A stretch of DNA of 22,513 bases from a virus. Positions 3,450-20,846 of this stretch are shown here, one piece after another; position 1 is the stretch's first letter, and the number at the start of each line of letters is the position of its first letter. The notes under the pieces are model-generated. The model ran no database searches, was not told the DNA's origin, and saw only the letters and a list, made by a program, of their open reading frames with translations. Location of the stretch: IMG/VR virus record IMGVR_UViG_3300037247_000105, positions 1 through 22,513 of that record; one strand, written 5' to 3'. A program made the translations under genes and the position numbers.

Positions 3450-6400
3450 TTATTGGATGACATCGATAGCCTGTAGATCAGCGATCAACGTGCCGAGTAC
3501 ATCTGCCAGTTCATCAATCGATGTTGCGTTCGCATCGTAGGCACGATCCGTTGAGACGTTAGTCGGTGTGTAAATCTCTGCGCTCCTGCGATCTGCGACG
3601 GTCAGCACTCGCTCATAGCCTGCACCGGTTAACGTGTTGTTGGCAAAGAGTCCTCCGAGAGCAGCGGTCGTGGTACGCGCAACTGAAACCCCTACTTCAT
3701 ATAGCTCGACGCTGTTGGCACCATCGGGGTCCATCGTGATCAGGTTTCGAGTGGTGCCACCTGTGTCATCGCCTATGATATTGATCACATTACCGTTGAT
3801 GAAGCTACGGATCTGAGTGATCCCAGCGACGACGTCAATGTGGAAGACCGTGGCAACACCTGTGTCCTCTATCGTGATGTTGCCCGTGTCAGCACCGTCA
3901 CCACGTACCCTAATGCCTTCTAATCGCGTTAGAAGAGTAGTTGCACCTGCGAACTTGAGCTGAACTTCAGCGTCGGGATCGAACGTAGCGCATTCAACGG
4001 ATGCACTAACTGAATTGGCACCTCTGATGAGAAGAAGGGAGCTATCAACCAAGCCATCCCATATTACTCGCGTAGACTCGCCACGCATCGCCATGTGATC
4101 AACGCCAGTGCTGCCTTCCATGAGAAGCAGAACATTAGTTGCCGCGTTACCACGAATCGTGACACCCGATGAGGCTGTGATAAGACGAATGAGCCCCGTC
4201 CAACGTATGTCGGAAGTGCCGGTCGAGCCCGACCCACTGACGACGACCTGCTCAACTCCAGCACCATTCAACACTCGTAGAGAGATACCTAAGCTATTGA
4301 CTCGCGATTGCAGCCGCGTACCTCCAGCGTCGTGGCCCAAACGTGCACGTTCAGTCAATCCATCAGCAGACATAAATCTGTAGTCAGCTGCCGAAGCAGT
4401 CTCACCAAGAAAATCGATGCCTTCAGTCGTCGTGAGAATTCTGTCTGCAGTGTTGTGCTGAATTGTTACGGCACCTGCCGGATCAATGGAGATTGCAGGA
4501 GTGTTGAGCCAGTCTCCCGCTGACTTGAAAAGGACAGACCCTGTGGCTGGAGCTGTCAGCGTGACATCGGTCAGGTCGTTTAGTGCAGCTGCTGCGGGGA
4601 TGTCAGATGTCGTGAGCACACGCTCGAAGCCTGCACCGGTTAACGTGTTGTTGGCTGAGAGACCACCTGCTGCTGCAGTCAATGTTGCGACGACTGAGAC
4701 CCCAATATGAAAGATCTCGGCATCACCAGCAGGGTTGAATCGAGCTGCAACGTGATCGACAGGAGAGCTGTCACGAGTTACAAATTGGATACCGCTATTG
4801 TCTAGCTCTGACTCCAGCTCCATGAAGGAGCCGTTCTGGCCCAGCTTCCAGAGATCTGTCCCATCAGCTTGCTCACCAGTGATCGTAGCAAGACCAGCAA
4901 AGCCACCACGGATAATAATGCCTGAGATGTTAGAAGCGAGAAACTGTAGCGATGTCCCTGCTGCATCTCTAAAGAACGTGACATCACCCTCTGGATCAAA
5001 CGAAGCCATGAGCGTGTCAACACTAGCTGCATCGCTTCCGCGAAGCTGCAGAACTCCAGTGTCTTGGAAGAGCTTAATAGAGAAATCATTGGTGCCTTCG
5101 AGGAAGCCTATCTGCCAAATGTTGTCAGCAGAAGGATTCCTGAATGTCATCCGTGCATCTTGGATCGAGGCATCTACCGCAGGATCATTGTCAAGAATCC
5201 CAGTGATGATGGGACCGACTTGATCAGGGTCGAAGAAGTAGAGAACGCGCTCGGTGCCTGCAGCATTCTCACCGACGAGTTCAAGAGGTCCTCCATGCAC
5301 GAAGTTTTTCAGTCGTAAGGTGGTTGATCCAATCGTCTCGTTGAATCCAACGAACATCGCTGTTTCAGGAGAGGCGTTTCGGTTCACAACGCGGAACACC
5401 CCTACCTGCGCGAAGCCACCAGAGGGCTGGTTAGTGCTATTCGCTTTCTGCGTGACCGCATTGACACCAGTGTCCAACCGCATCAGTTGTTGAGTGCCGT
5501 TGGGCTCTGAGAAGATGATGAAGCCACCAGCGGAGGAGTAGTCGATGTCTATAACATCGCGCACCTCTCCAGCATCTGAACGACCTCGAATGATGGTGCT
5601 CCCACCATTCTGAGCGTTCTCCCAGATACTCTCGTCCGTACCGACATCGTGCGTAAATGTGGTCTGGACTATGAAGTTCTCATTCAGTTGAAGGACGGGG
5701 TCATCTGCCGTCTCGGCATTGACAGCCACACCACCTGAAGCAACGGTGAAGAGTCGTTGCTCTCCTGCATGGAGCATCGTGCTGTTGGAATCGGGATCAG
5801 CAAAGAAGAGCAGTTGCTCAACGCCAGAGCCATCCTCACCTGAGAGGCTGACAGGTCCACCATGCACGAAGTTTTTAATCTCAAGGCTGGTTCGGATAAG
5901 AGATGAACCAAACCCCATCTCTCCGGTCTCGGTGCCGTCTTGCAACGTCATCCGAAAATTGCCAGTTTGACCCGCTCCCGTCGAAGGAGGATTAACACCC
6001 CCCGCCATTATGACTGAAGCGTTACCAGCTATTACGCTCATCCGGATTAAGCCAGCATTCAATACGTCGAGCCAAGTGTGACTCCCCGCAAAACCATCGT
6101 AGCGATAAGTGTCCTCTTCAACGCCACCACCAGTGATCACCCGCACAGCGAAACTACCGCGCCTTACTTTATTGAAAACGCGGAACGTATCTCCTGCAGG
6201 ATCGAAGCCCGCCTCACCAGTCGCTGCAAAGAGGGAGTTCTGATACCCAAGGGTCGCATCGTATGTCCCACCACCCGCAGGGTTGGTCGGATCATCAGTG
6301 CTGGTGCCTATGACGACACCCGCGAAGAGATCTGCTGCGGTTAGGACACGTTCGAGTCCTGCACCCGTGAGCAGGTTGTTGGCGAGCAATCCACCCGCAG

Positions 6401-6761
6401 CTGCTGCAATCGTCTCGACCAAGACAGTGCCATCACGAATTGCAATCTGATGGAAGCCACCCTCCGCATCATTCGACCAGATGAAGTTATCGCCTGCAGG
6501 ATCGAACCCAAAGACACCTGTTTGCTGCAAATTGACATTGCGCCAGAGAAGCTGTCCATCAAATACTCCCCCACCAATGGCTGGATCATCTACGCTGGTG
6601 CCGTTGATGAAGAGAGTGGTCGCACTGATGACGAGATCATCTGCAGCGACTCTTCGACTGACGACTACTCCACCTTCCGTCACTTCCACCTCGAAGAAGG
6701 TGGTAGAACCAACCAGTGGAATAGTGGCGAAGGGCAGATCTGAGATTTGTACGTTAGCCAT
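3450..6761 (-). CDS. Long repetitive tail fibre / appendage protein
   Basis: This 1103-residue, beta-rich protein starts with a segment common in phage fibres that anchors the fibre to the virion (VQISDLPFATIPLVGSTTFFEV, then a basic strand and ADDL). The body carries repeated units. A block ending in ANN-L-TGAG-ERVLT occurs near residues 121-145, 695-715 and 1030-1055. LKNFVHGGP-L followed by GE--G-E occurs near 292 and 482. Many copies of FDPAGD-like turns occur throughout. The C-terminus has YTPTNVSTDRAYDANATS and a helical ELADVLGTLIADLQ, a common fibre end that probably trimerises. No lyase or depolymerase motif is evident. It starts two bases after the preceding stop, with a weak AGAGAG site. 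Receptor binding is the likely role; the receptor is unknown. Confidence 0.85.
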   Translation of the reverse strand: MANVQISDLPFATIPLVGSTTFFEVEVTEGGVVVSRRVAADDLVISATTLFINGTSVDDPAIGGGVFDGQLLWRNVNLQQTGVFGFDPAGDNFIWSNDAEGGFHQIAIRDGTVLVETIAAAAGGLLANNLLTGAGLERVLTAADLFAGVVIGTSTDDPTNPAGGGTYDATLGYQNSLFAATGEAGFDPAGDTFRVFNKVRRGSFAVRVITGGGVEEDTYRYDGFAGSHTWLDVLNAGLIRMSVIAGNASVIMAGGVNPPSTGAGQTGNFRMTLQDGTETGEMGFGSSLIRTSLEIKNFVHGGPVSLSGEDGSGVEQLLFFADPDSNSTMLHAGEQRLFTVASGGVAVNAETADDPVLQLNENFIVQTTFTHDVGTDESIWENAQNGGSTIIRGRSDAGEVRDVIDIDYSSAGGFIIFSEPNGTQQLMRLDTGVNAVTQKANSTNQPSGGFAQVGVFRVVNRNASPETAMFVGFNETIGSTTLRLKNFVHGGPLELVGENAAGTERVLYFFDPDQVGPIITGILDNDPAVDASIQDARMTFRNPSADNIWQIGFLEGTNDFSIKLFQDTGVLQLRGSDAASVDTLMASFDPEGDVTFFRDAAGTSLQFLASNISGIIIRGGFAGLATITGEQADGTDLWKLGQNGSFMELESELDNSGIQFVTRDSSPVDHVAARFNPAGDAEIFHIGVSVVATLTAAAGGLSANNTLTGAGFERVLTTSDIPAAAALNDLTDVTLTAPATGSVLFKSAGDWLNTPAISIDPAGAVTIQHNTADRILTTTEGIDFLGETASAADYRFMSADGLTERARLGHDAGGTRLQSRVNSLGISLRVLNGAGVEQVVVSGSGSTGTSDIRWTGLIRLITASSGVTIRGNAATNVLLLMEGSTGVDHMAMRGESTRVIWDGLVDSSLLLIRGANSVSASVECATFDPDAEVQLKFAGATTLLTRLEGIRVRGDGADTGNITIEDTGVATVFHIDVVAGITQIRSFINGNVINIIGDDTGGTTRNLITMDPDGANSVELYEVGVSVARTTTAALGGLFANNTLTGAGYERVLTVADRRSAEIYTPTNVSTDRAYDANATSIDELADVLGTLIADLQAIDVIQ

Positions 6762-14044: not shown

Positions 14045-14974
14045 CTACAGTCCAGGCGTGCCGAACACCGTTCGGGGATCGGTCCAGTCTGGAATGTATC
14101 GCTCGGTGGACTTGTACCGCATTGAGTCCGTCTCGAAGTCGCCTTCCATCGACTTCTCCAGTCCCCTCCGCATCATCATCTGCAGACCACGAGGAGCGTC
14201 CGTCTGGACCCACCATGCAGTCGTGGAGGTGATACGGGACAGGTTCGCTTGACCTTGGTCGAGCAGACCCATCGAGAGGATTGGGTTGATGTCGTTGTTC
14301 GCCGTGCCTGCACGCAGGACCGACTTCAACAGCACCTCAGCCTGGAAGACTTGGCTCGGGCCTGTGACGATCTTGAGCGGCGACAGTCGGATGCGCTTGC
14401 CGTTGTTGTCAACAGCGTTGCGGATCTGAATGAGCAGCTGCTCAAGCGACGTTTGCGACAGAGCCGCAGCAGTCGTCAACAGGTTCGAGAACACACCACC
14501 CGCAGCACTCCCTGGTGCAATCGGATGGTTGGTGACGTTCAGTGCTACACCGTCTCCACCGACAAACGCACCGTTGAAGGCGCGGTTGAAGATGTTGGCG
14601 CACAACGTCTCCTTCGTTTCGATCATCGACTGAGCAAGGTGCTCAGAGTAGATCGTGCCGATGCGGATGTGGTCACCGTCTTCGACCAGCACCTTGGTTA
14701 GCGCGAACGCAAGACCAAAGACGCGATAGACGTAGCGCTGAATGAACAGCACGCCGCCTGCGTCGAACGTGACCGGGGTGCCATCAGGCATCTCGGGAGC
14801 CGCGTTGAATCCGAACAGGACGGGCTCTTCGTGGTACGAACGGGGAGTACCCGTACGCTCCGTGAAAACTCCCTTCCACTCGTCGGCGCGTTGGTTATAA
14901 ATTCCGTCGAACGTCTCGTTGAGGATCGGTTCGACAATCGACCGAAAGTCGGTTGATCGCATTGGGACAGCCAT
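14045..14974 (-). CDS. Major capsid protein, Mu gpT-like
   Basis: This 309-residue protein builds the icosahedral head shell. The text fits the Mu gpT-type major head subunit family: an N-terminal helix (FRSIVEPILNETFDGIYNQ), a loop with PVLFGFNAAPEMPDGTPVTF, RYVYRVFGLAFALTKVLVEDG, a domain with NVTNHPIAPGSAAGGVFSNLL, then TSLEQLLIQIRNAVDNNGKRI followed by LKIVTGPSQVFQAEVLL. The C-terminus has DAPRGLQMMMRRGLEKSMEGDFETDSMRYK. These are hallmarks of this HK97-fold family as I know it. A strong GAGGAGA site lies about 7 bases before the ATG. It follows scaffold and cement-like genes in the usual head order. No N-terminal protease domain is visible. Confidence 0.88.
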   Translation of the reverse strand: MAVPMRSTDFRSIVEPILNETFDGIYNQRADEWKGVFTERTGTPRSYHEEPVLFGFNAAPEMPDGTPVTFDAGGVLFIQRYVYRVFGLAFALTKVLVEDGDHIRIGTIYSEHLAQSMIETKETLCANIFNRAFNGAFVGGDGVALNVTNHPIAPGSAAGGVFSNLLTTAAALSQTSLEQLLIQIRNAVDNNGKRIRLSPLKIVTGPSQVFQAEVLLKSVLRAGTANNDINPILSMGLLDQGQANLSRITSTTAWWVQTDAPRGLQMMMRRGLEKSMEGDFETDSMRYKSTERYIPDWTDPRTVFGTPGL

Positions 14975-16172: not shown

Positions 16173-17207
16173 TTATCGGGCGTTTGCTTCGCTCTTCGCT
16201 TCGGCATCGTATTGCGCGTAGCGTTTGAGCATGCTGTTACGGGCTTCTGGATCATCCCAAATACCAGCCTCGATCATTGCATCCTTGCGCTCGGGGCTGA
16301 TGTAAACCTCGTTATCCTTCAGCGTGCGCTCTCGCCCACCTGTACGAAACGTAGGTCCTTTGTTCCGACGAGTCTGACGCTTCCCTTTTCCGTTACCGGA
16401 ACCTTTGTCATCGTCGTCATCATCCTCTTCATCTCCAGCGTCGAAATGATGAGGCAATTCTTTCTGGACTCGCTCTCTCAGCTCGTCCCAGTAATCCTTG
16501 CTCGTGGGGTCATACCCCTCTTGAACCAGCGCTCCGTCAATGTGGAGCACTGATTTTGAATCATCATCCTGTCCACGGGGGTCCCACCAATCGTTGTCGA
16601 TCATGAAGGATTGCGCGTGGGCAACGTGACGTGGATCTAGCTCCATCGGAGGTCTCTCAATACGACGGTTGCCTTCGTCGGTGAGGTAATCCTTGGCTCC
16701 TTCTAGATCACGCAGGTTGTCTCGGATGACATCACGATGGTCCATCGCTTCAGCGAGGTTTTGACCATCGTTTTTCTCAACAGCTTGCGCAATGACTTGA
16801 TTGGCAAGCTGCAGATCGGATTTGGCTTTGCTGATGTTCTGATCAATGCCAGAAATCTCGCTGCCTGTGACCCGTGCATCGACATTCGCTTCGAGTTCAC
16901 TGAAGCGACGTTCTAACGTCTCATTGCGTCCGCGCAGGAAGGACATCTCACGATCCGTGCGCTCTTTGGCTCGGCGTCGAGATGCATTGCGTTCGGAACT
17001 GCTCTTGTAACGACGACGACCCTTCTTGCCTTCGTCTTCGTCACGACCACCTCCAAGACGAGTCTCCCCCTCCTCATCCTCATCCTCTTGGTCGTCTTGT
17101 TCGTCAGCCTCCTCGCCCTCAGGATCATCCTCGACGGCAATGAACTGTTCTTCTTCTTCCTTGTCCTTCTCGTCCTGATCGACGTCAAACTGTTCGACTT
17201 CGGACAT
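16173..17207 (-). CDS. Head scaffolding-like protein
   Basis: This 344-residue protein has no enzyme motif. The first 55 residues are extremely acidic (EDEDEEGETR), followed by a basic patch (KKGRRRYKSSSERNASRRRAK). A coiled coil follows (residues about 85-170, FLRGRNETLERRFSELEANV). The centre contains DPRHVAHAQSFMIDNDWWDP, and near residues 260-270 there is another Asp run. The helical C-terminus (ERKDAMIEAGIWDDPEARNSMLKRYAQYDA) would bind capsid protein. This charged, coiled-coil layout just upstream of the capsid genes is typical of scaffolding proteins. The ribosome site TAAGGAGGT overlaps the GroES-like gene's stop codon. The identity is from composition and context and not from a motif. 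Confidence 0.75.
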   Translation of the reverse strand: MSEVEQFDVDQDEKDKEEEEQFIAVEDDPEGEEADEQDDQEDEDEEGETRLGGGRDEDEGKKGRRRYKSSSERNASRRRAKERTDREMSFLRGRNETLERRFSELEANVDARVTGSEISGIDQNISKAKSDLQLANQVIAQAVEKNDGQNLAEAMDHRDVIRDNLRDLEGAKDYLTDEGNRRIERPPMELDPRHVAHAQSFMIDNDWWDPRGQDDDSKSVLHIDGALVQEGYDPTSKDYWDELRERVQKELPHHFDAGDEEDDDDDDKGSGNGKGKRQTRRNKGPTFRTGGRERTLKDNEVYISPERKDAMIEAGIWDDPEARNSMLKRYAQYDAEAKSEANAR

Positions 17208-17221
17208 ATGTGCTTACCTCC

Positions 17222-17722
17222 TTACAGGTATGCTATTACCTCCATCGGGTCACAGGTGATCTGGCCGATCATGTCCAGATCGTTGTAGATAACGAAGCAT
17301 GCTTGGTCTACACCCATTCGCATAGACGTAGCACCAGGGAGAGTGACGAACCATCTGTCGCCGCCATACTTTGGCACGCGCACAATCGCACCCTCCTGGC
17401 ACCAGTCCCCTTCCGGCCATGGCTCAAGAGTATCGCGGTTCTTGAAAGCGCCGGGTCCAAGAGAAATGACTTTAGCGACTTGAGTGTTCCAGAACTCAGT
17501 CTCCTGGGATTCAATTGGAACGATGATCCCACCCTCAGTGACTGTTCTGGGCGTACGTTTTTGCACGAGAACACGGGAGCCAAAAGGCTTCAAGCCGGGT
17601 TCCACTACAGGGAACGCCTGCTCGATGTTGTCGTATTGCAACCTCGTCCGACCACCAATAGTCCTACCCCTCTCTTCTAAGGAGTAATTCTCAGGTAGAA
17701 CAACTGGATTTTCCTCAGCCAT
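17222..17722 (-). CDS. GroES-like co-chaperonin
   Basis: This 166-residue protein carries a GroES fold from about residue 42. KPFGSRVLVQKRTPRTVTEGGIIVP aligns with the GroES start (PL-DRV-VKR, mobile loop, GGI-L). TQVAKVISLGPG matches the G-V-AVG-G strand, and GDWCQEGAIVRVPKYGGDRWFV matches VKVGD-V-F--G. CFVIYNDLDMIGQI matches the LI-SE-DI-A end. The mobile loop keeps the hydrophobic contact for GroEL (residues 64-68, GGIIV). Compared with the ~97 residues of bacterial GroES, it has a 40-residue N-terminal extension and a longer central loop. Phage co-chaperonins such as T4 gp31 help host GroEL fold the capsid protein. Its place between portal and scaffold genes supports that role. Confidence 0.85.
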   Translation of the reverse strand: MAEENPVVLPENYSLEERGRTIGGRTRLQYDNIEQAFPVVEPGLKPFGSRVLVQKRTPRTVTEGGIIVPIESQETEFWNTQVAKVISLGPGAFKNRDTLEPWPEGDWCQEGAIVRVPKYGGDRWFVTLPGATSMRMGVDQACFVIYNDLDMIGQITCDPMEVIAYL

Positions 17723-17924
17723 TTTTGGTCCTGTCTTCCTCTTCCCCTATCACTTTCTCGAACAGCCGCTCGGCACGATCCAAGCCTTGGAGAATGCCGC
17801 ACGCTTCACCGTATCCAAAGGCACTCTTATCCTTCGGTGTCGCGAGTAGCGCAAGGCACCCGGCTTTTTCCTGTTTCACTGCCGTCAGGAACTTCTTAAA
17901 AACGATGTCTTCGGCGGCAGGCAT
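17715..17924 (-). CDS. Hypothetical small protein, 69 residues
   Basis: Not recognised. It is helical and charged (EDIVFKKFLTAVKQEKAGCLALL, GILQGLDRAERLFEKVIGEEEDR), with a central FGYGEACG. The gene overlaps the GroES-like start by 8 bases, so the two are probably co-translated. It has no membrane segment. The size and position between portal and co-chaperonin suggest a small head-assembly factor, but nothing in the sequence fixes this. Confidence 0.62.
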   Translation of the reverse strand: MPAAEDIVFKKFLTAVKQEKAGCLALLATPKDKSAFGYGEACGILQGLDRAERLFEKVIGEEEDRTKNG

Positions 17925-18219: not shown

Positions 18220-18243
18220 GCGGGCCGACCTTCCGGTCCCCGC
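18220..18243 (-). promoter_or_regulatory. Stem-loop abutting the portal stop codon
   Basis: On the minus strand, GCGGG-GACC, loop GGAA, GGTC, a two-base GG bulge and CCCGC form a 9-bp GC-rich hairpin with a GNRA-type loop. Its first base is the last base of the portal TAG. It lies in the 81-base gap between portal and the next small gene, one of the two longest gaps in the window. No T run follows, so it is a weak terminator at best; mRNA stabilisation or a processing site is equally possible. Nothing else is visible in this gap except the GGAGG site. Confidence 0.4.
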
Positions 18244-20846
18244 TAGCTTCGAGGTCTGGGGTTTGTTGCACCCTCACCAGTCGTGACCCTACCTCTCTGT
18301 TTTGCTGCTTCCGCATTCTTGTCCGCGATGGCTAACGCCGTTACGTTATCTTCGGTGTTTATGTCCTCACGGCTCTCAGTCTCAACGAGTGTCTCCTCTC
18401 TCTCAGCGTCTAGTCGCTCCATAAGCTCTTCGAGTCGAGCGGCGTACTCCAAAGCTTTTCGAGCGTCTTCACGTGCACCACGGAGAGTGCTCTCGCGAGT
18501 TTCGTGATCAAGCTCCATGAACTTGATTTCTTTCTGCTGCTCGCGAGCCTGTTGTTTGTCCACGAGCTGCATCTGCGTTGCCTCACGCTCCCGTGCATCA
18601 CGCATCTCATCCGACGCTTGCTCTTGCTCGATAGCCATCTGCGTATTCGGATCAATGGGTGGTTGCTCGGGCTCGGGCTGATTCTCCTGAATCTGCTGTG
18701 CGGTCTGCTCAATGATTGGCAGCAGACCAGACAGCACCTTCTCAACAGCAGGCATCACAACCTGTGATTGTACTGCGAGGTTCTTGTCCAATTCTTTGCG
18801 CACTTCGGGCGTACGCAACTTCATCATCTCACTCATCTCCTGCCCACTAAGACCTGTGGATGCCTGCAGGAGATCGTAGTTGTACTCAACGTAATAGAAC
18901 GTCATGTGCTCTTTGATGTGCTCCAAGACCATTGGCATGAAGGTCTGAGAGATGAGCATGTTCTGTCCCAACACAGGAGACTGGAGATAGTCGAGATGCA
19001 CCTGCAGGTGAGCGAGGTGATTTTGCTCAGGGAAGGCTGCTATCGGTCTACCCAGTGACATGGAGGCATTCTCATTGACGGCATTCATCTCCTCCGGGGA
19101 GTCATCCGGCAGGAGCAGCTCGTCAGGATTCGGAATTTTCGTGCGTTCGAGAATGCGCTTCTCAACAGCCTTGATGTTGTAGACCTGAGGCATCGCGGCA
19201 GCGCGGTCTGCGACGACTTGCAGCTGTGCCATGCGCTGAACGTCGGAGAAAATCTCCGGGTCAGCGACAGGCATGATGTCAAACGGAGGATCGAAGTCCT
19301 TGCGATGTGCAAGCACCTCACCGACCTCGCTCTTCGCCTCTTCCTCCTCCAGATACATCCGGTTGATGCGGTTCAGAATCCGCAGGATGTAATTCATTGA
19401 CTGGAACAGGCGCAAGTGAATTGCGCTGAAGACAGTCATGCCTTCTTCAATCAAGGCGAGGGTGGTGCCTACGGGCATCTGTGTACTTTGTTCACCCAGC
19501 TTCTCGAAGGTGGTTTGCACCATCCCTCGACCGGCTTCGGAAACGACGCTCAGCAGTTCTAGGAGGACGTTAGATGGGGGATTGAACGGCACGGGCATGA
19601 TCAACTTGCGAATGTCATCGCCAGCGATCCCACCCTCGATTTCAGTGACCTCAGCTATGTTCAGTTCCTTCGACTGACCACTGAAGTTTGCCCCCTTGAG
19701 CCTGAGCAGGGTGGGCAAGTTGTTCATGTGGGCTGAGTCGAGGAGAGCGCGGAGCGCACCCGTAGCAGCGCCGGATAGCGATCCGATCATCTGCCCCAGT
19801 CCTATGGTGTACGCTCCGCGCCAAGGAATGAATGGAAACTCAACAGCCCAATAAAGAGGCTGCTTGGTGTCGTCGTCCTCCTCCTCCCAGTTCCGGTTAA
19901 CAGCACAGACCTTGCGAGCTGCACCGTCGATGGTGATGCGGTAAGGAGCGTAACCATGCTTCTCTTCCAGATCATCGCACCAGCACATCACCTCGTAGAC
20001 GTTGCGCAGTCCATCCTCGTTGTAGGGCTGCAGCTGATCCTTGCCTTCAATCTTGTCGGTCGCCTTCGCGGCTCCCGATTTGTCGATAGGTTGTGATGTA
20101 ACGACCGTACCCAGGTCGAGCCACATCTCACTCTTCACACGTTGCTTGACCTCGTGCTCCGTGATGTGCTCACAGAAAGTCACTCGCTCTGCGGTGTAGA
20201 AGTTGGATGCTGCGTAGGGGAGGTAGACGTCGTCACTAGGCCAATACGTGGGAACCGGGCGTTTCTTCTGGCTGTCATACACCAGTCTCATGTACTGAGA
20301 CCCACCCAGCGGAAGCTGTGTCAGCAACTGCTCCAGCTCTGATCGAAAATCAGGCATCTGGATCAGGAACTGCCAGTTCATGTAGGTCTTGACACGCTCG
20401 CCTTTGGCGAAGCGTCCAGGCTCCGGGTGGTCCCCAGGCACGTACACCTTAACGGGACCGTTAGGGGGCATCAGCTCCTTGATTGCTCTCGATGCAAAAT
20501 CAACAACTGCCTCAGTGAGCATTGGATGGACGGCTTTTGAAGCGCCCTCAAAATCTGCTCCTCCTGGCGTTTCCTTTCCGAGACCAGTTCGCTTGATTGC
20601 CTCCTCGTAGTCCTTGTCCCTCTGCTCCCTCGCCTGTCGATCACGCTCGATGTCCTGCAACAGACGTGTACAAATTTTGCTCAACTCAGCACTGTCGATA
20701 TCGTCCGCGATGTTCGCGTACCACTCCCTGTTGGGACGAGTGGGGACGTCATCCCCAACGCGGACAATGGCACCCCCATCGTCGGTATCGGTCACTTCAT
20801 CGGGGACCTCCTGAAACTCTTCAACAGTGCCCGTGGCTTCAGCCAT
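18243..20846 (-). CDS. Portal protein (large, P22/podovirus type)
   Basis: This 867-residue protein forms the dodecameric ring at the capsid vertex through which DNA is packaged and released. The N-terminal part has EEAIKRTGLGKETPGGADFEG, then SKAVHPMLTEAVVDFASRAI and ELMPPNGPVKVYVPGD. The wing/crown region includes LPLGGSQYMRLVYDSQKKRP and PSDDVYLPYAASNFYTAERVTF. The centre has GRGMVQTTFEKLGEQSTQMPVG, a likely stem/clip helix region. The C-terminal ~170 residues are Gln/Glu-rich helices (IEQTAQQIQENQPEPEQPP, EQEQASDEMRDAREREATQ), like portal barrel helices. Length fits large podoviral portals. The start overlaps the upstream gene by 8 bases, and the gene follows the terminase after two small genes. 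Confidence 0.88.
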   Translation of the reverse strand: MAEATGTVEEFQEVPDEVTDTDDGGAIVRVGDDVPTRPNREWYANIADDIDSAELSKICTRLLQDIERDRQAREQRDKDYEEAIKRTGLGKETPGGADFEGASKAVHPMLTEAVVDFASRAIKELMPPNGPVKVYVPGDHPEPGRFAKGERVKTYMNWQFLIQMPDFRSELEQLLTQLPLGGSQYMRLVYDSQKKRPVPTYWPSDDVYLPYAASNFYTAERVTFCEHITEHEVKQRVKSEMWLDLGTVVTSQPIDKSGAAKATDKIEGKDQLQPYNEDGLRNVYEVMCWCDDLEEKHGYAPYRITIDGAARKVCAVNRNWEEEDDDTKQPLYWAVEFPFIPWRGAYTIGLGQMIGSLSGAATGALRALLDSAHMNNLPTLLRLKGANFSGQSKELNIAEVTEIEGGIAGDDIRKLIMPVPFNPPSNVLLELLSVVSEAGRGMVQTTFEKLGEQSTQMPVGTTLALIEEGMTVFSAIHLRLFQSMNYILRILNRINRMYLEEEEAKSEVGEVLAHRKDFDPPFDIMPVADPEIFSDVQRMAQLQVVADRAAAMPQVYNIKAVEKRILERTKIPNPDELLLPDDSPEEMNAVNENASMSLGRPIAAFPEQNHLAHLQVHLDYLQSPVLGQNMLISQTFMPMVLEHIKEHMTFYYVEYNYDLLQASTGLSGQEMSEMMKLRTPEVRKELDKNLAVQSQVVMPAVEKVLSGLLPIIEQTAQQIQENQPEPEQPPIDPNTQMAIEQEQASDEMRDAREREATQMQLVDKQQAREQQKEIKFMELDHETRESTLRGAREDARKALEYAARLEELMERLDAEREETLVETESREDINTEDNVTALAIADKNAEAAKQRGRVTTGEGATNPRPRS

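Follow-up and report, generated by a model that had tools for sequence, protein, structure and literature searches.

A GroES-type co-chaperonin gene in the head operon of a phage with a small capsid protein

Most of what is understood about phage co-chaperonins comes from T4 gp31, for which the size of the cage has been the argument: gp31, which has a 22-residue loop and no roof, is explained by the ~56 kDa capsid protein gp23 (PMC6318259). Both gp31 and CocO of phage RB49 replace GroES (PMC3012670). GroES in short-tailed phages has also been published and is not new. HTVC023P-type Podoviridae have 13 core genes, GroES among them (PMC9599517), and the genome maps of CRP-901-type phages show it as well (PMC10149686); Caulobacter phages RW and KcrB carry genes annotated as 'co-chaperonin GroES'. 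Genes annotated in this way and lying in the slot described below are found in Caulobacter phage RW, Roseobacter phage CRP-902 and Pelagibacter phage HTVC023P.

The window analysed here (the whole stretch of 22,513 nucleotides) encodes a protein of this kind (Table 1). Over residues 28-166 it shares 54% identity with gp090c of Caulobacter phage RW and its orthologues in GB2A, RLK and KcrB, which have the same WPEG roof and occupy the same slot between the portal gene and a scaffold-like gene; their N-terminal extension is shorter (143 aa in all). The HTVC023P-type pelagiphages and Roseobacter phages CRP-901/902 also use this gene slot, with a capsid protein ~40% identical to the one in the window. 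Their GroES proteins are ~30% identical to ours and the roof is shorter or altered, although that of HTVC023P (FPKGAWC) resembles the WPEGDWC of the window protein. With bacterial GroES the protein has in common the barrel, the mobile loop, the roof and a KYGG-type motif; it differs by its extended N terminus, by insertions that follow the mobile loop and enlarge the roof, by a C-terminal tail of ~9 residues, and by a reversed conservation of roof and mobile loop. Gp31 and CocO are likewise phage-encoded and have the Cpn10 fold. However, the lengthened mobile loop and missing roof typical of gp31 were not found in the window protein, which combines a loop of GroES length with a larger roof and matches gp31 less well in structure than it matches GroES. 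In a separate observation on phage RW, two genes annotated as 'large terminase subunit' were found to flank a gene for a SAM-dependent methyltransferase (L028, 2445-5247).

Table 1. Features of the head-gene region and of the GroES gene (window coordinates)
Feature	Positions	Strand	Evidence or remark
Portal protein, 867 aa, 97.9 kDa	18243..20846	minus	phrog_1216, E 6e-10
Conserved small ORF, 69 aa, 5' of GroES	17715..17924	minus	overlaps the GroES start by 8 bp
GroES/Cpn10 co-chaperonin, 166 aa, ATG start	17222..17722	minus	Pfam, PHROG, PDB sequence and fold matches
N-terminal extension, codons 1-43	17594..17722	minus	alignment of relatives; low pLDDT in residues 1-30 of the model
GGIIV, codons 64-68, predicted GroEL-binding part of the mobile loop	17519..17533	minus	alignment to E. 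coli GroES I25-V26-L27
Roof loop with WPEG insertion, codons 90-106	17405..17455	minus	belongs to the best-conserved segments in the family
Putative scaffold, 344 aa, pI 4.6	16173..17207	minus	position and acidity; conserved slot; only PHROG match is a family of unknown function
Major capsid protein, gpT-like, 309 aa, 34.0 kDa, candidate client	14045..14974	minus	phrog_4523, E 6.5e-8; homologues annotated as major capsid protein

Identity, predicted fold and gene context

A reading of the sequence alone had proposed a GroES-like protein, and database searches bore this out. Pfam PF00166 (Cpn10) matched with 36.6 bits (cut-off 21.1; E 4.7e-9), and the PHROG match was to phrog_3188, 'co-chaperonin GroES' (E 1.8e-9). 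Several NCBIfam GroES models were also hit (best E 1.4e-6), all below their curated cut-offs. Because the equivalog models for cellular GroES matched weakly and stayed below the cut-off (28.1 bits at best vs. 136), the protein belongs to a divergent phage branch and is not cellular GroES itself. GroES chains of the PDB were retrieved with the single sequence (E 3e-4), while a family profile built from 53 relatives found Thermus cpn10 (E 7e-9) and chloroplast Cpn20/23 (~1e-12). The Cpn10 profile was matched individually by 50 of these 53 relatives. Compared with the nearest relative, dN/dS was ~0.09 (0.025/0.276), and purifying selection on the gene is supported.

The AlphaFold2 model (49 sequences) had a mean pLDDT of 85.9, and its residues 43-157 matched bacterial and mitochondrial Cpn10 in Foldseek (E 3.9e-7). 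With VIA-align, Z reached 9.2 (94 residues) against bacterial and mitochondrial GroES and was lower, 6.5-7.4, against T4 gp31. The comparison of a predicted structure with GroES and gp31, which the sequence-only reading had suggested as a check, yielded the Cpn10 beta-barrel and the mobile loop. The catalytic domain of medium-chain dehydrogenases contains a GroES-like fold, and these enzymes appeared in the same list of structural matches with a Z of 5.9; the fold match is thus not decisive when taken alone. Sequence, fold and loop evidence agree, and the ORF is confirmed as a genuine Cpn10/GroES homologue.

Most of the detailed features that had been read from the sequence were also recovered. 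The mobile loop GGIIV is present at residues 64-68; the loop has the same length as that of E. coli GroES and could be aligned with it without insertion. All three positions of the tripeptide I66-I67-V68 are hydrophobic in 53/53 relatives, which, as far as the alignment goes, would fit retained binding to GroEL. The lengthened central loop was found as ~4 additional residues that follow the mobile loop and another ~4 (WPEG) that enlarge the roof, with a further, variable insert near residues 128-140. The N-terminal extension, announced as 40 residues long, is real, but only residues ~30-43 (the AFP..DPG region) are conserved. The first 27 residues are variable, and the relatives mostly measure 131-150 aa vs. 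166 aa for the window protein.

The gene order is portal, two small ORFs, GroES, acidic putative scaffold, two ORFs and major capsid protein. The head genes share one strand and are separated by short gaps or overlap slightly, and GroES is placed between the portal and scaffold genes as had been described, the latter gene being a putative one. The Shine-Dalgarno sequence of GroES is weaker than the strong sites at the scaffold, g190, g183 and capsid genes. Together with the overlap at the start codon, this fits a need for GroES in smaller amounts than the structural proteins. A promoter scan gave nothing above chance, and a search by sequence for solved structures gave no useful match for the capsid and portal proteins. 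The assignment to a short-tailed type of phage is plausible to the extent of a podovirus affiliation, given that the HTVC023P-type relatives are Podoviridae (PMC9599517) and that an SU10-type adaptor is encoded at 136-780. The small ORF that overlaps the GroES start is probably helical and has 76 homologues (~65 aa) in the locus set, as found by iterative profile search. Elsewhere in the window, a protein of 1103 aa (3450-6761) contains repeated motifs of the type GGLxANNTLTGAGxERVLT and had no family match.

Linkage of GroES to the capsid type

The association of GroES with this capsid was determined on loci fetched by the capsid protein alone, blind to GroES. Viral contigs yielded 80 capsid-anchored loci, and GroES was found in the upstream slot in all of the 73 that reached far enough. 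The same was true of the 17 capsid loci of sufficient length in bacterial genome collections (17/17), so that the combined count for GroES between portal and scaffold was 90/90. Of 20 annotated phage records whose capsid is related, 14 were also matched by the GroES search at matching coordinates and four more carry a Cpn10 gene in the slot; in these annotated phages, capsid relatives with as little as 32% identity have GroES there. The remaining two records, MW202601 and MW202604, represent one capsid type.

In the MW202601-type branch, GroES was found at the head operon in 0/8 loci long enough. We had considered this branch as a natural control devoid of GroES, and this was rejected: a whole-record search, which covered MW202601 and two contigs of the branch (G011 and G012), disclosed a Cpn10 gene outside the head operon in the two longer records, MW202601 and G011. 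The MW202601 gene (L154, 3200-3664) adjoins an SSB gene. In the shorter contig G012 (10.9 kb), the same search found no Cpn10 gene. Retention of GroES with this capsid type is thus near-universal.

A search for Cpn60 (GroEL) genes was positive in 14/14 known genomes used as a control but detected none in 14 records of relatives, which may include fragments. This indicates that the phage GroES presumably caps the GroEL of the host. We also tried to assign a host from bacterial genomes; this was rejected as unreliable, since each of the 23 capsid matches fell in a contig of a metagenome-assembled or uncultured bin. Two metagenome-assembled genomes (G013 and G014; loci L139 and L140) had the phage copy as their sole Cpn10 match, which could pass for a host gene.

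Conservation of the roof and the mobile loop

The phage family was compared with GroES of bacteria from the phylum of a Methylomonas bin (31 sequences). In bacterial GroES the roof is the barrel segment with the lowest conservation (2.80 bits, vs. 3.50 bits for the mobile loop), whereas in the phage family it ranks among the best-conserved segments (3.33 bits, vs. 2.57 bits for the mobile loop). The difference between roof and mobile loop amounted to -0.71 bits in bacterial GroES (bootstrap 95% interval -0.79 to -0.53) and to +0.76 bits in the phage family (0.54 to 0.90); the contrast is descriptive, because mean identity is not the same in both sets (66% for the bacterial and 54% for the phage sequences) and the bootstrap ignores phylogeny. 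As judged from these alignments, a conserved roof with a variable mobile loop, the reverse of bacterial GroES, appears to be a mildly unusual feature. Such a pattern is not described in the passages on phage GroES that we covered, which come from sources other than the main survey of viral chaperonins.

In capsid relatives at a greater distance the roof is variable: it is nearly absent from the GroES of MW202796 (L119, 4600-4935). The GroES of Alcaligenes phage QDWS535 (L117, 3531-3872) has a longer, altered mobile loop.

Function and client

We consider it probable (about 0.85) that the protein is a phage co-chaperonin of the GroES/Cpn10 family, which serves as a lid for host GroEL and helps to fold phage morphogenetic proteins, most likely the capsid protein. 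It would assemble as a heptameric ring and dock on host GroEL through the mobile-loop tripeptide; the closed chamber would then assist the folding of morphogenetic proteins, the abundant capsid protein being the most likely client.

The sequence-only reading had gone further and suggested a capsid protein that needs a modified folding chamber. The data did not sustain this. At 34.0 kDa the capsid protein is far below the ~56 kDa of gp23 and small enough for the ordinary GroEL-GroES cage, the normal loop length and enlarged roof are unlike gp31, and one branch has its cpn10 outside the head operon. The pairwise distances of GroES correlated with those of the portal, scaffold-like, g190 and capsid genes (r 0.73-0.83), but the partial correlation between GroES and capsid, with the other genes accounted for, was 0.04. 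Covariation therefore gives no support for a capsid-specific partner, and we rejected co-evolution as a proof that the capsid is the client. A larger chamber is not part of our interpretation; what is unusual in the protein is its extended, highly conserved roof. Some specificity for the capsid may nevertheless exist, since subtle features of the cage may matter as well as its size (PMC3012670).

Two versions of the co-chaperonin function carry equal weight, and we would put each of them somewhat short of an even chance. The protein may cap GroEL for general supply or takeover, replacing or supplementing a limiting host GroES during infection for the benefit of many clients, with no special dedication to the capsid protein. 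Such a role agrees with the rate covariation, which does not favour the capsid over other genes of the module, with the location next to SSB that cpn10 can adopt, and with a capsid protein that does not need a bigger cage; gp31, too, takes over general folding (PMC6318259). It accounts less well for the nearly constant presence of GroES inside the head operon and for the extended conserved roof, which suggests selection beyond mere dosage. Alternatively, the protein may be a chaperone specialised for the capsid: its long, conserved roof (FKNRDTLEPWPEG) would touch the capsid protein or give the top of the chamber a form suited to it. The opposite signs of the roof-loop difference in phage and bacterial proteins, with bootstrap intervals that do not overlap, argue for such a specialisation, as does the finding that the structure of the roof differs between capsid lineages. 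On the other hand, the roof may be conserved for the sake of ring assembly or of its own closure, the compared sets differ in mean identity, and no covariation specific to the capsid was seen.

A more far-reaching version, which we regard as rather unlikely, is that of a podovirus-wide GroES lineage in which the roof was fixed and extended while the GroEL-binding loop drifted with the host. The roof would then offer a small capsid protein a surface specific to this client, and capsid specialisation would have been reached by another route than in gp31 with its enlarged roofless cage. It is highly improbable that the Cpn10 fold has given up its engagement with GroEL and now serves in a protein of the virion or of its assembly, such as a head plug or a decoration protein: the position among head genes, the divergent sequence and the N- and C-terminal additions would suit such a protein, but the hydrophobic tripeptide is kept throughout the relatives, the ribosome-binding site is weaker than those of the structural genes, and the characterised phage homologues gp31 and CocO act as co-chaperonins (PMC3012670).

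To return to the co-chaperonin function, a widespread phage group keeps GroES despite a small capsid protein; cage size can therefore not be the whole reason for a phage to have a GroES of its own. Caulobacter phage RW, together with its genetically tractable host, would allow the reason for a phage-encoded lid to be tested directly.
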